A stretch of 64,000 bases of DNA from positions 92,384 to 156,383 of IMG/VR virus record IMGVR_UViG_3300020463_002440; one strand, 5' to 3'. The position numbers and the translations under genes are program-made. Origin of the DNA: a virus. Shown in pieces: positions 46,580 to 50,928 of the stretch (its first letter is position 1; each line of letters opens with the position of its first letter). The notes beneath the pieces are model-generated. The model saw only the letters and a list, made by a program, of their open reading frames with translations. It was not told the DNA's origin and ran no database searches.

Positions 46580-47281
46580 ATGGCACTACCAAAAATTGAC
46601 TTACCTTTAGAGGAAATTATAATTCCATCGACTGGTAAGAAAGTAAAGTTAAGACCCTTTACGGTAAAAGAAGAAAAGATATTATTAGTTGCGGCGGAAT
46701 CAGGAGATGCAGTAAATGAACTGCTATCAGTTAAGCAAGTAATTAATAATTGTTTAGTAGATTCTACAGTTGATGAAATGTCAATGGTAGATTTAGAATA
46801 TGTGTTTTTAAATCTACGAACACGTTCAGTAGATAATATAGCAACTTTTAGTATCACTGATCCTGATACTGATGAAAAGGTTAATTTAGAAATTGACTTT
46901 AAAGATGTTAAATTAATAGAAGACGAGGAGCATGATAATAAAGTAAAAATTAATGAAGAGTATACATTATTTTTAAAGCATCCAACGATTGCACAATTTG
47001 AATATGTGTTATCATTAGATGCAAAAGATCCTTTAATGAATTATTTTATTATGACATCATGTTTAGATAAATTGGCTTCGGAAGATGAAGTACATAATTT
47101 TGCAGATTATAGTAATGAAGAAATAGATGATTTTATGAACAGCTTAGATGGTAATTCAATTAAGCAAGTTTCTAAATTCTTTGAAACACTTCCTAAGTTG
47201 AGACATGAAGTAAAATATACAAATATGAATGGAGATGAAAAGACATTTGTGATTGAGGGCATGCGAAGTTTTTTTATCTAG
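46580..47281 (+). CDS. 26: gp26-type tail assembly chaperone, zero-frame product
   Basis: A 233-residue protein matching the T4 gp26/gp51 (T4_baseplate) family: LPLEEIIIPSTGKKVKLRPFTVKEEKILL near the start and acidic middle segments. The ribosome-binding site is AGGAG. The family normally continues past this point with a second helical part, but here the frame ends just after a T7 run (47269-47275) with codons AGT TTT TTT ATC TAG. The missing C-terminal part is found in the -1 frame immediately downstream (47275-47454). This gene lies right before the tape-measure-like gene, where lambda-type phages make their G and GT chaperones by frameshifting. Confidence 0.8.
   Translation: MALPKIDLPLEEIIIPSTGKKVKLRPFTVKEEKILLVAAESGDAVNELLSVKQVINNCLVDSTVDEMSMVDLEYVFLNLRTRSVDNIATFSITDPDTDEKVNLEIDFKDVKLIEDEEHDNKVKINEEYTLFLKHPTIAQFEYVLSLDAKDPLMNYFIMTSCLDKLASEDEVHNFADYSNEEIDDFMNSLDGNSIKQVSKFFETLPKLRHEVKYTNMNGDEKTFVIEGMRSFFI
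47269..47275 (+). promoter_or_regulatory. Probable -1 ribosomal frameshift site (T TTT TTT)
   Basis: A seven-T heptamer in the zero-frame register T_TTT_TTT, where both tRNAs can re-pair perfectly after slipping back one base, six bases before the TAG stop. After slipping, translation continues as FF-YLGLSHMTLSHYYNM for 59 more residues. The resulting 291-residue protein would match the full length expected of the gp26-type family. Confidence 0.6.
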
Positions 47282-47454
47282 GGCTAAGTCATATGACACT
47301 TAGCCATTATTACAATATGATCTTTTCGCTTTGTCAACATCATAAGTATTCTATATCTGATGTTGAAGGATTAATACCGTATGAAAGAGATTTATTCTTT
47401 CAGATGTTAATTGAGTATCTTGAAAGACAAAAAGAAGAACGAGCAAATAGGTAA
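47275..47454 (+). CDS. C-terminal part of the tail assembly chaperone, -1 frame
   Basis: A -1 frame open from the T7 run to TAA at 47452-47454 encodes 59 residues, starting YLGLSHMTLSHYYNM and including HHKYSISDVEGLIPYERDLFF. This resembles the C-terminal part of gp26-type chaperones (YY, HHKYS and the P-[WY]-E-R-[DE] motif). An internal ATG at 47293-47295, with AGGG nine bases upstream, could start a free 53-residue product. I judge fusion by frameshifting more likely because family resemblance extends upstream of that ATG (LGLSH). A sequencing error in the T run is the main alternative. Confidence 0.65.
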   Translation, partial: YLGLSHMTLSHYYNMIFSLCQHHKYSISDVEGLIPYERDLFFQMLIEYLERQKEERANR

Positions 47455-47461
47455 ATATTAA

Positions 47462-49282
47462 ATGGCAGACTTAAGCGCAGAAACACAAGCTATTATCAGC
47501 GAACTTGATAAACAAGGAAAGCTGTTACGCAATGACGGACGAACAAATTCAATTAAGATGGTTAGACAAGATCTAGCAAAGTTTGAACCAATCTTTATTA
47601 GTATTAATAAAGGTATCGGAAGCATGGCTGAAAAAATCAATTCTATGGTTTCTTTATCTGCTACCGAATCAGAGGGTGCAAGTAGAATTGCGACCGACGA
47701 TCTTGATGATGAGTATGTTGGATTACAAAAAGAAGCTGCTGAGCTTACAATTAAAAACGCTAATCAAAGAGAAAAGCTTGAAGCTGAACAAATGGCAAGA
47801 GATGAAGTTGCTCGTAAACAAAAAGAAAAGGATGATAGAAAAGCTGAAACAGAAAAAAACAAAATAATGTCTCAAGGTCTTATATCAATGGCAAGAGATA
47901 ATAAGATGGGAATGTTTAAAGGTGTTTTAAAATACGGTTTACTTGGATTTGCTGGATTTAATATAATAAAAGGTGCAGTAGATCAAATGTTCGATGGTGC
48001 TGCCTCTGAGTTTTTAAATAATGTTGATTGGACTTCGTTATCCGAAGGGTTTAATCGTATGACAAGTTGGATTACTTCTGATATTTGGAAAACATTAGCA
48101 ACTGGTCTTGCGGCATGGGGTGCATTAGAATTTGGTTTACCGTTTATGGTTAACACTGCTGGTGAACTTATTAAACTATCTGCGTTTAAGAGTGCACTAT
48201 CAGGAATAACATCTGATAATATTAAAAATACTGGAGGCTTTCCTGGTTTAAGAGTAGGTATAGCAGGTGCGTTAGGAGCTGCATTGGCGATGGGTATGCC
48301 AGCAATTAAAACTTTTATAAGAGAAAGTATGATGGGAATGACACCAGCTGAATTAGAAAAGGCTCAAGCTGATCCTGGTATATTAGATGCCGCAGGTTAT
48401 GCAGCAATTGGTGGAACTCTAGGATTTATGTTTGGCCCGACCGGTGCTTTGGCAGGGGCAGTACTTGGATTCGCTGTTGGTCTTGGTTCAATGTTAATTG
48501 ATAATTTAAAAGATGATGTTAAAAAGGCTGGAGCAAACGAAGAAGTAGAGGATCTAGCAATAACACTCAGAAATCTTCAGGATAAACAAAAAGAACTGGA
48601 AACATATAGAAAGAACATGAAAGCTGACGGAATGTCAGACGATGAAATAGATAAAGCAATTGCTAAGTTTGGCAAAGAGTATTTAAATTTAGATACGGCC
48701 ATTATTACGGCAGAAGAAGATTTAGCTGCAGCAGTTGAGAGATATAACACATCAAATGCTTTAGCTGCTGAAGAAGTAAAAAATAAGGAAATTTCTGATA
48801 CTAAATTGGTACCAAGAGTCTCCACTTTTGGTATGGCCATGCCGTATGAAGAGCAAAAAACGCTTGAAGAGTTTAATAATGATATAAAGGCAAGAGATCA
48901 GCAGGTTGAACAAATATTAGGCAAGAGCGATGATAATTTACAATTGGCTGCTTCACTTATAGATTTAGAGACGGTAAACGCAAGAATCGCAAAACGTGAA
49001 AAAAAGAATAATGAAACCTACAATAATATGTTCAGTCCTTTTAATTGGGATACATACCAATTTAATTTATCCGATGAAACTATTACAGCTTTACTAAATC
49101 TGACTGAGTCTTCTGAACAGCTTGGATCACTACAAAGAACGGAGTACTTTACTTTACAATCAAATAATAAAGGAGGGGATGTAAATGTTTATTCAACCTC
49201 TGGTGATACTCATCATAATAGAACAGTTAATGGTTTTATTGGGCAAGGTAATGGAATGTTATCGCCTGTAGGAACAAATTAA
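47462..49282 (+). CDS. Tape-measure-like tail protein (gp29-like role)
   Basis: A 606-residue protein following the tail chaperone, the classic place for a tape measure. Residues about 85-145 are charged and coiled-coil-like (KEAAELTIKNANQREKLEAEQMARDEVARKQ). Three hydrophobic stretches follow, around 158-170, 263-282 and 316-345 (GGTLGFMFGPTGALAGAVLGFAVGLGSM spans the last). The C-terminal half is again helical and charged. Tape measures combine long helices with hydrophobic segments. T4 gp29 has 590 residues, so the length fits a similar tail. The gene ends at a bidirectional terminator. Confidence 0.65.
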   Translation: MADLSAETQAIISELDKQGKLLRNDGRTNSIKMVRQDLAKFEPIFISINKGIGSMAEKINSMVSLSATESEGASRIATDDLDDEYVGLQKEAAELTIKNANQREKLEAEQMARDEVARKQKEKDDRKAETEKNKIMSQGLISMARDNKMGMFKGVLKYGLLGFAGFNIIKGAVDQMFDGAASEFLNNVDWTSLSEGFNRMTSWITSDIWKTLATGLAAWGALEFGLPFMVNTAGELIKLSAFKSALSGITSDNIKNTGGFPGLRVGIAGALGAALAMGMPAIKTFIRESMMGMTPAELEKAQADPGILDAAGYAAIGGTLGFMFGPTGALAGAVLGFAVGLGSMLIDNLKDDVKKAGANEEVEDLAITLRNLQDKQKELETYRKNMKADGMSDDEIDKAIAKFGKEYLNLDTAIITAEEDLAAAVERYNTSNALAAEEVKNKEISDTKLVPRVSTFGMAMPYEEQKTLEEFNNDIKARDQQVEQILGKSDDNLQLAASLIDLETVNARIAKREKKNNETYNNMFSPFNWDTYQFNLSDETITALLNLTESSEQLGSLQRTEYFTLQSNNKGGDVNVYSTSGDTHHNRTVNGFIGQGNGMLSPVGTN

Positions 49283-49312: not shown

Positions 49313-49825
49313 TTATTTACCTTTTAAATAGGCAAGTACATTTTCAGGAGCGGTTTCTCCATACGGATCTGATTGACAATCGTCCATCATTCCTGGTTCA
49401 GTAAATAATCTTTCAACTTTACCATTGTCTACGACCATAGCATATCTCCAAGATCTTCTTCCGAAACCAAGATTGTCTTTTACGACTAACATATCCATAC
49501 CAGCAGTGAATTCACAAGATCCATCAGGAATGAATTTTACATTCTTAACTCTTAGATCTTCAGCCCATGCATTCATAACGAAAGTATCATTACAAGATAC
49601 ACAATAAACTTCATCAATTCCATGCTCAACAATCTGATCATATAGAACATCAAATCCTGGGACTTGATTATTTGAACAGGTTGGTGTAAAAGCGCCAGGT
49701 AGTGAAAATACTACTACTCTTTTTCCATCAAAATAATCTGCTGTAGTTGGATGGGTCCAATCGAACTCACCGGTTTCTACATTTCTACTTCTTACTTTGA
49801 AAGTTATATTAGGTACAGTTTTCAT
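49313..49825 (-). CDS. Peroxiredoxin (Prx5-type)
   Basis: A 170-residue thioredoxin-fold peroxidase. The peroxidatic cysteine is Cys50 in LPGAFTPTCS, and the conserved Arg is in SWRYAM (127). Other cysteines are Cys75, Cys78, Cys104 and Cys150; one may act as resolving Cys. The layout (DYFDGKRVVVFSLPGAFTPTC, NDTFVMNAWAED, FTEPGMMDD) fits the Prx5 or hybrid-Prx group that uses glutaredoxin or thioredoxin for reduction. It would remove hydrogen peroxide or alkyl peroxides in the infected cell. It is a host-derived auxiliary gene placed at the end of the operon with Hsp20, suggesting a stress-protection role during infection. Confidence 0.9.
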   Translation of the reverse strand: MKTVPNITFKVRSRNVETGEFDWTHPTTADYFDGKRVVVFSLPGAFTPTCSNNQVPGFDVLYDQIVEHGIDEVYCVSCNDTFVMNAWAEDLRVKNVKFIPDGSCEFTAGMDMLVVKDNLGFGRRSWRYAMVVDNGKVERLFTEPGMMDDCQSDPYGETAPENVLAYLKGK

Positions 49826-49880
49826 TATATAGTTTCCTTATCAGTTGGGAGGCCATTGCGACCTCCCGGATTAAAACAAA

Positions 49881-50333
49881 TTAACCTTTTAGAAATTCTT
49901 TCTTAGTGTCAATTTTAATTTTACGTGCCTTTTTTGCCTCAGGAATTATTCGTTCCAATGCGACAGTTAAAAGACCGTTTTTGAAGTTGGCTCCGATTAC
50001 TTCAATATCGTCTGCAAGAGTAAAACTTCTTGTAAACTTTTTGAAAGAAATACCGCGATGAACATAGTCACCTCCGCCATTGAAGTATTCTCCTGCTTCA
50101 TCCCAAACGGAACGAACAGTTAATACATCTTCTTTTACTTCTATTTCAACATCTTTAATATCAAGACCTGCTAACGCAAGATCAATAAAGAACTTTTCGC
50201 CTTTGTCGGTTCTGATATTGTAAGGCGGAAAGCCTTGTGGTTGATGTTGGTGAGGGAATTCCACCAATCTGTCAAAGACTCTATCAAAGCCTACGGCAAA
50301 AGGGTGAAGTTGGTTTATATTTAATCCAGTCAT
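49881..50333 (-). CDS. Small heat-shock protein, Hsp20/IbpA family
   Basis: A 150-residue alpha-crystallin-type chaperone. The N-terminus (FAVGFDRVFDRLVEF) and PPYNIRTDKGEKFFIDLALAGLDIKDVEIEV are typical of the IbpA group. The core ends in RSFTLADDIEVIGANFKNGLLTVALER, with the G-L-L-T-V motif. The C-terminal I-x-I anchor is RKIKID. sHsps are among the commonest accessory genes of marine T4-like phages, where they are thought to assist protein folding late in infection. A TATAAATA late promoter box lies 86 bp upstream. Confidence 0.93.
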   Translation of the reverse strand: MTGLNINQLHPFAVGFDRVFDRLVEFPHQHQPQGFPPYNIRTDKGEKFFIDLALAGLDIKDVEIEVKEDVLTVRSVWDEAGEYFNGGGDYVHRGISFKKFTRSFTLADDIEVIGANFKNGLLTVALERIIPEAKKARKIKIDTKKEFLKG

Positions 50334-50418
50334 GTTTATCTCCTATTAAGCAAGATTAATTAAATTTGATGGTATTACCCATCGGTTATTGTAAGACCCT
50401 TACGGCGCCCTACAAATT

Positions 50419-50426
50419 TATTTATA
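50419..50426 (-). promoter_or_regulatory. T4-type late promoter for hsp20 and peroxiredoxin
   Basis: A perfect TATAAATA on the minus strand, 86 bp before the Hsp20 start and overlapping the end of the dUTPase gene (stop near 50422). It would make the chaperone and peroxiredoxin genes late-expressed, unlike the early-type promoters to their right. Confidence 0.5.
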
Positions 50427-50928
50427 CACCAGTTGACCCAACACCACCTTTTCGGTCAGTTTTTTGAGTCGGTTGCGTATTTGTTTCTTTTATTTTTATT
50501 TGGTTTACTTCAGCTAATCTACATTGTGCCAATCTTTCACCATCATGTACATTGACTAAACTATCTGATATATTATGTACAATAATATGCGTTTCGTCAA
50601 CATAATCAGAATCAATTATACCAACACTATTTACTAATGTCAATCCTCTTTTCGTTGCTACACTTGAACGAATAAACATTTCCATTACATGATTGTCTGG
50701 AATGTCGAAGATTAATCCGGTTGGTATAAGTACTCTTGTTTCAGGCGGAACCTGAATTGTTGGTTTACCATTTTTTAATTTAATTAAAATTGGTATTTCT
50801 TTATTCCAAGCATCGTATCCTTTAATGCGCTCGCCTACTGTTAAACAAACTTTTATATCAAAGCATGCTGAACCTTTGGTTGCGTATTCAGGAAGTGTTG
50901 CGTTATCTCGTACTTTATATACATTCAT
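50422..50928 (-). CDS. dut: dUTP diphosphatase (dUTPase)
   Basis: A 168-residue trimeric dUTPase. Motif 1 is ATKGSACFDI, motif 2 RSSVATKRGL, motif 3 VGIIDSDYVDE, motif 4 GERLAQ and the C-terminal P-loop-like motif 5 RKGGVGSTG. It hydrolyses dUTP to dUMP, keeping uracil out of DNA and supplying dUMP. A roughly 20-residue insertion (YDAWNKEIPILIKLKNGK) follows motif 1. The gene has its own perfect sigma70 promoter. dUTPase together with dCMP deaminase and a TS-family enzyme in the same window shows active control of pyrimidine deoxynucleotides. Confidence 0.93.
   Translation of the reverse strand: MNVYKVRDNATLPEYATKGSACFDIKVCLTVGERIKGYDAWNKEIPILIKLKNGKPTIQVPPETRVLIPTGLIFDIPDNHVMEMFIRSSVATKRGLTLVNSVGIIDSDYVDETHIIVHNISDSLVNVHDGERLAQCRLAEVNQIKIKETNTQPTQKTDRKGGVGSTGV

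Follow-up and report, generated by a model that had tools for sequence, protein, structure and literature searches.

A T4-like tail assembly chaperone locus with a probable programmed -1 ribosomal frameshift and a putative downstream RNA stimulator

How does the gp26-type gene of this virus relate to the gp51-type coding region that continues in the -1 frame past its stop codon, and is the latter translated as a protein of its own or as the end of a longer chaperone? The window, that is, the whole 64,000-nucleotide stretch of DNA that was analysed, carries this gp26/gp51 locus as a single copy within the 156-kb virus record, and the genes lying 5' of the locus match head closure, DNA end protector and tail tube families. 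The features on which the analysis turns are the following.

46580-47281, plus strand: gp26-type gene, short chaperone form TAC-N (233 aa, zero frame), assigned from PF12322, phrog_150 and IMG/VR relatives
47269-47275, plus strand: slippery heptamer T_TTT_TTT in the zero-frame phase N NNT TTT TTT, conserved, the sole in-frame T_TTT_TTY of the window
47279-47281, plus strand: zero-frame stop TAG, one sense codon (ATC) past the heptamer
47275-47454, plus strand: -1 frame extension, gp51-type domain (59 aa), the C-terminal part of TAC-NC, assigned from phrog_634, the match of the fusion and codon conservation
47282-47305, plus strand: putative stimulatory hairpin with an 8-bp stem (47282-47289 with 47298-47305), an 8-nt loop and a 6-nt spacer
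47293-47295, plus strand: ATG lying within the loop of the hairpin and read in the -1 frame, non-conserved and unlikely to be a normal start
47462-49282, plus strand: 606-aa ORF, candidate tape measure gene by position and size

The short product matched PF12322 (T4_baseplate) with E=3.4e-47, in keeping with homology to the T4 gp26 family, and phrog_150 (baseplate hub) with E=2e-51 and 176.1 bits for gp26 alone. Its ORF closes with GGC ATG CGA AGT TTT TTT ATC TAG, and the stop at 47279-47281 is where a preliminary description of this DNA had placed it. That description was also right about the T7 heptamer, an X_XXY_YYZ motif in the register for -1 slippage, but it put the TAG six bases further on, whereas the distance is three bases. 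The -1 frame is open from 47275 to the TAA at 47452-47454 and encodes, as had been proposed, 59 residues, beginning YLGLSHMTLSHYYNM. This extension matched phrog_634 ('baseplate hub assembly catalyst', the gp51-type domain) with E=5.9e-17; the C-terminal part expected of the family is thus real, and can be refined to the domain annotated as gp51. The calling of the next gene as tape-measure-like agrees with its position and size (counterparts in close relatives have 548-667 aa) but found no backing in similarity, as profile comparison of the T4 gp29 tape measure with the 606-aa ORF gave no signal.

We consider it very probable that this is a tail assembly chaperone locus in which a -1 ribosomal frameshift is programmed, and comparative data strongly support the earlier proposal that such a frameshift joins the gp26-type chaperone to the C-terminal extension. 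The reading draws on the heptamer, its phase and its conservation, the predicted downstream structure, selection on -1 frame codons that precede any start codon fit for use, and the predicted fusion's homology to full-length T4 gp51. In the mechanism envisaged, the majority of ribosomes would read gp26 to the TAG and yield the short form. A minority would pause at the hairpin, the two Phe-tRNAs would slip one base back on T_TTT_TTT, and the slipped ribosomes would bypass the stop to produce a gp26-gp51 fusion of ~291 residues in a fixed minor ratio. We infer both the occurrence and the efficiency of this slippage from the sequence, and the two forms would presumably act like lambda gpG/gpGT, which coat the tape measure and bring in tail tube subunits.

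The heptamer at the end of gp26 is not a product of chance. Within 40 non-overlapping ORFs of the window (19,310 codons), which contain 36 Phe-Phe pairs, in-frame T_TTT_TTY occurs once, at this site, and TTTTTTT is strongly avoided window-wide, with 8 observed against 57 expected from dinucleotide shuffles. Relatives were drawn from 80 IMG/VR loci of 56-67% identity and from isolate genomes, giving 63 distinct junctions. Heptamer, phase and stop position are common to all 80 IMG/VR loci, bar the few near-identical loci L023, L026 and L028, which have G_TTT_TTT in place of T_TTT_TTT, and a gap of one sense codon separates heptamer from stop in 80/80. At the 63 junctions the heptamer was TTTTTTT in 46, TTTTTTC in 14, GTTTTTT in one and CATTTTC in one, the last in Pseudomonas phage Cygsa01, with one T-even phage lacking a site. 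The check for T runs kept at the junction across relatives, which had been suggested, therefore came out in favour of the frameshift, with TTTTTTT or TTTTTTC in slippery phase at 60 of the 63 junctions. The isolates include Kyanoviridae and Straboviridae phages as well as other phages of Vibrio, Aeromonas, Pseudomonas, Delftia and Nitratidesulfovibrio; T_TTT_TTC is present in five further isolates, S-PM2, ACG-2014f, nt-1, Milchi and B23, and in Milchi no codon stands between heptamer and stop. Judged by these alignments, the slippery signal is conserved across most of the T4-like phages examined here.

A second element, absent from the preliminary description, is the putative hairpin, which starts 6 nt 3' of the heptamer (a spacing of about 5-9 nt was looked for) with the stem arms GGCTAAGT and ACTTAGCC and has a folding energy of -11.6 kcal/mol. 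Folding of 60 nt from 47282 gave z = -4.96 in the window. The mean z over 52 relatives was -3.54 at +3..+63 (60 nt past the stop), whereas the averages for eight other offsets ran from -0.31 to +0.48. In the window's clade the stem is kept through C-G/G-C and U-A/G-C/A-U compensatory exchanges, and in the other 42 relatives the same 5' arm pairs with one lying ~40 nt beyond it, so that an inner helix is enclosed. For this long-range architecture, evaluated on 41 of the 42 relatives (38 distinct), 80% of cells pair in register; sliding the arms lowers this to 33-47%, and none of 500 shuffles reached the covariation score. Shuffling does not take out relatedness, and the codon constraint is shared, so that more weight falls on the position-specific z-scores. 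Folding gave no strong local hairpin in the distant phages syn9, SRB7757, Aeromonas G2 and LPCS28, and the only Rfam match for the region was a chance one, below threshold.

The fusion, assembled in silico, was then set against the two T4 proteins. It scored 197.6 bits against phrog_150, over 5-276/282, and its match to phrog_634 covers 12-113, as that of T-even gp51 does; T-even gp51 reaches the end of phrog_150 and also covers phrog_634, and the window fusion nearly does so. A profile of the fusions matched T4 gp51 over 21-287 (E 2.8e-13 at Z=10000). In the fusion alignment T4 gp26 ends at the slip-site Phe-Phe and T4 gp51 runs on through it, and the two products of the proposed frameshift would therefore correspond to two genes in T4, gene 26 (208 aa) and its divergent neighbour, gene 51 (249 aa). 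PF12322 is matched by gp26 as well as gp51 of a Klebsiella T-even phage. A single-sequence comparison of T-even gp51 with A3 by hhalign gave a weak match, and the relation was settled with the Pfam and PHROGs profiles, by which gp51 of T4 and of the Klebsiella T-even phage is the separately encoded, full-length counterpart of the gp26+gp51 fusion in the window. The name 'gp51' as annotated in cyanophages thus covers the C-terminal extension only, while T4 gp51 is the whole long form.

AlphaFold2 modelled the short form confidently, with a mean pLDDT of 87.6, and the extension as helical (81.9). A Foldseek search of the PDB with the gp26 model gave no significant match and mostly noise, among which the HK97 tail assembly chaperone 2OB9 appeared as a weak, not significant hit (probability 0.57, E 0.95). 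The predicted viral structures matched by the model were gp26-type proteins and a gp51, and a sequence search for solved structures returned none that was meaningful.

The -1 ORF has 55-65 aa in every frameshift case of the 63-junction set. When the first -1 codon after the slip is counted as index 0, the window's ATG at 47293 has index 6. In 52/52 close relatives indices 3, 5 and 8 encode Leu, His and Leu, respectively, with varying synonymous codons, and indices 3 and 5 lie 5' of that ATG. Codon conservation and alignment thus show that the -1 frame is selected as coding sequence from the slip site on, the codons before the window's ATG being under protein-level selection. These codons bear directly on the possibility that the locus makes two proteins, gp51 being a free peptide of ~53 aa that arises by coupled re-initiation at ATG 47293 past the gp26 stop. 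The ATG does lie 12 nt past the start region of the stop codon, AGGG at 47280-47283 could serve as a weak ribosome-binding site, and GenBank annotates gp51 as its own gene. An ATG overlapping the stop (TAATG/TGATG, index 2) occurs in 17/52 close relatives, so that some re-initiation is possible there, and Cygsa01, without the heptamer, has TAATG. The window's ATG, however, is found at this codon in 8/52 close relatives and sits within the loop of a stable hairpin, and the invariant Leu and His codons are upstream of it. No ATG occurs up to +30 at 32/63 junctions, and none of ATG, GTG or TTG at 20/63; in at least these phages translation must therefore enter the -1 frame from gp26. A separate gp51 would also leave the heptamer, its phase and the RNA structure unexplained, and T4 gp51 is the full-length counterpart of the fusion. 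A free C-terminal peptide started at an internal ATG, as raised in the preliminary description, is thus disfavoured. As the main route to gp51 it was rejected, its start not being conserved, and we regard a two-protein locus as quite unlikely.

Annotation of the extension varies among the relatives. It is unannotated in the records of Aeromonas phage G2 (L084:3206-3372) and Cronobacter phage LPCS28 (L086:3179-3341), and in syn9 (L082) the annotated extension begins at a late ATG, there being none before it. In Pseudomonas phage Cygsa01 (L087:3205-3225), CATTTTC is combined with the TAATG overlap, possibly a change from frameshifting to coupled re-initiation.

A homopolymer of seven T can in principle cause some slippage of RNA polymerase, and one added base gives the -1 frame. 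Addition of one U to some transcripts would yield the same fusion without any slippage of the ribosome. Yet at 14/63 junctions a C comes after just six T, what is conserved is the codon phase T_TTT_TTY, which fits tandem tRNA slippage, and a conserved structure lies downstream at the 6-nt spacing typical of ribosomal signals, so that polymerase slippage appears very improbable. Although homopolymers are error-prone, a sequencing error or pseudogene split has a negligible chance of being the explanation and was refuted by recurrence of the same arrangement in independent contigs, at 80/80 IMG/VR loci, and also in the genomes of isolates from several laboratories.

The programmed ribosomal frameshift preferred here invites comparison with lambda G/GT, whose slippery heptamer is GGGAAAG. 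The lambda frameshift was reportedly described by Levin in 1993 and by Xu, Hendrix and Duda in 2004. The likeness to lambda that had been suggested lies in the logic, as a short and a long chaperone would come from one locus adjoining a presumed tape measure gene, by a -1 slip near the end of the short ORF; the window locus differs in its heptamer and in its strong downstream hairpin. The principle of short and long chaperones made by frameshift is already known from other tailed phages. T4 gp26 (TAC-N) and gp51 (TAC-NC) belong to the same family and represent the short and the long form, respectively, but in T4 they come from two divergent genes and in the window from one locus, by the proposed frameshift. 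In phage 0305phi8-36, gp143/gp144 (PMC2147016) form a two-gene chaperone, a paralogous pair of short and long form that, as with T4 gp26/gp51, involves no frameshift.

The preliminary description had taken frameshifting to be non-standard for the T4 gp26 type; according to papers citing Vladimirov 2022 (PMC10885494, PMC12846349), it has in fact been reported. Vladimirov, Gautam & Davidson 2022 are cited in PMC12846349 for poly-T slippery signals in T4-like TAC-N genes, and in the PRFect paper (PMC10885494) for a short gene and a longer fusion gene in some T4-like phages. The T4-like tail-assembly-chaperone assignment is thus already published (Vladimirov 2022), the poly-T sites being taken here from second-hand citation. 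For phage Adele, PMC12846349 likewise proposes a -1 signal of poly-T where TAC-N ends, with an uninterrupted -1 frame, in the Pakpunavirus/Vandenendeviridae TAC; this is a different phage family, the proposed signal is GTTTTT, and the part of that paper dealing with the TAC describes no stimulatory structure. A description of the downstream RNA structure was not found in the open-access literature searched, and what may be new here is a putative stimulatory RNA structure at a well-supported T4-like chaperone frameshift. The hairpin is a concrete candidate for an RNA stimulator and open to a reporter test, and the locus supports frameshifting as the way in which marine T4-like phages obtain the long form of the chaperone.

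We give about even chances to a wider reading in which frameshifting with a dedicated RNA stimulator is the ancestral source of the tail chaperone pair in the T4 superfamily. The stimulator would then exist in two alternative conserved architectures, the short hairpin and a ~58-nt two-helix structure. As for frameshifting itself, the T-even phages would have given it up for a duplication into the divergent genes 26 and 51, and at least one lineage, that of Pseudomonas phage Cygsa01, may have exchanged it for stop-start coupling.

Just past the tail genes, on the minus strand at 49313-50928 of the window, lie ORFs that by eye resemble a peroxiredoxin, a small heat-shock protein and a dUTPase.
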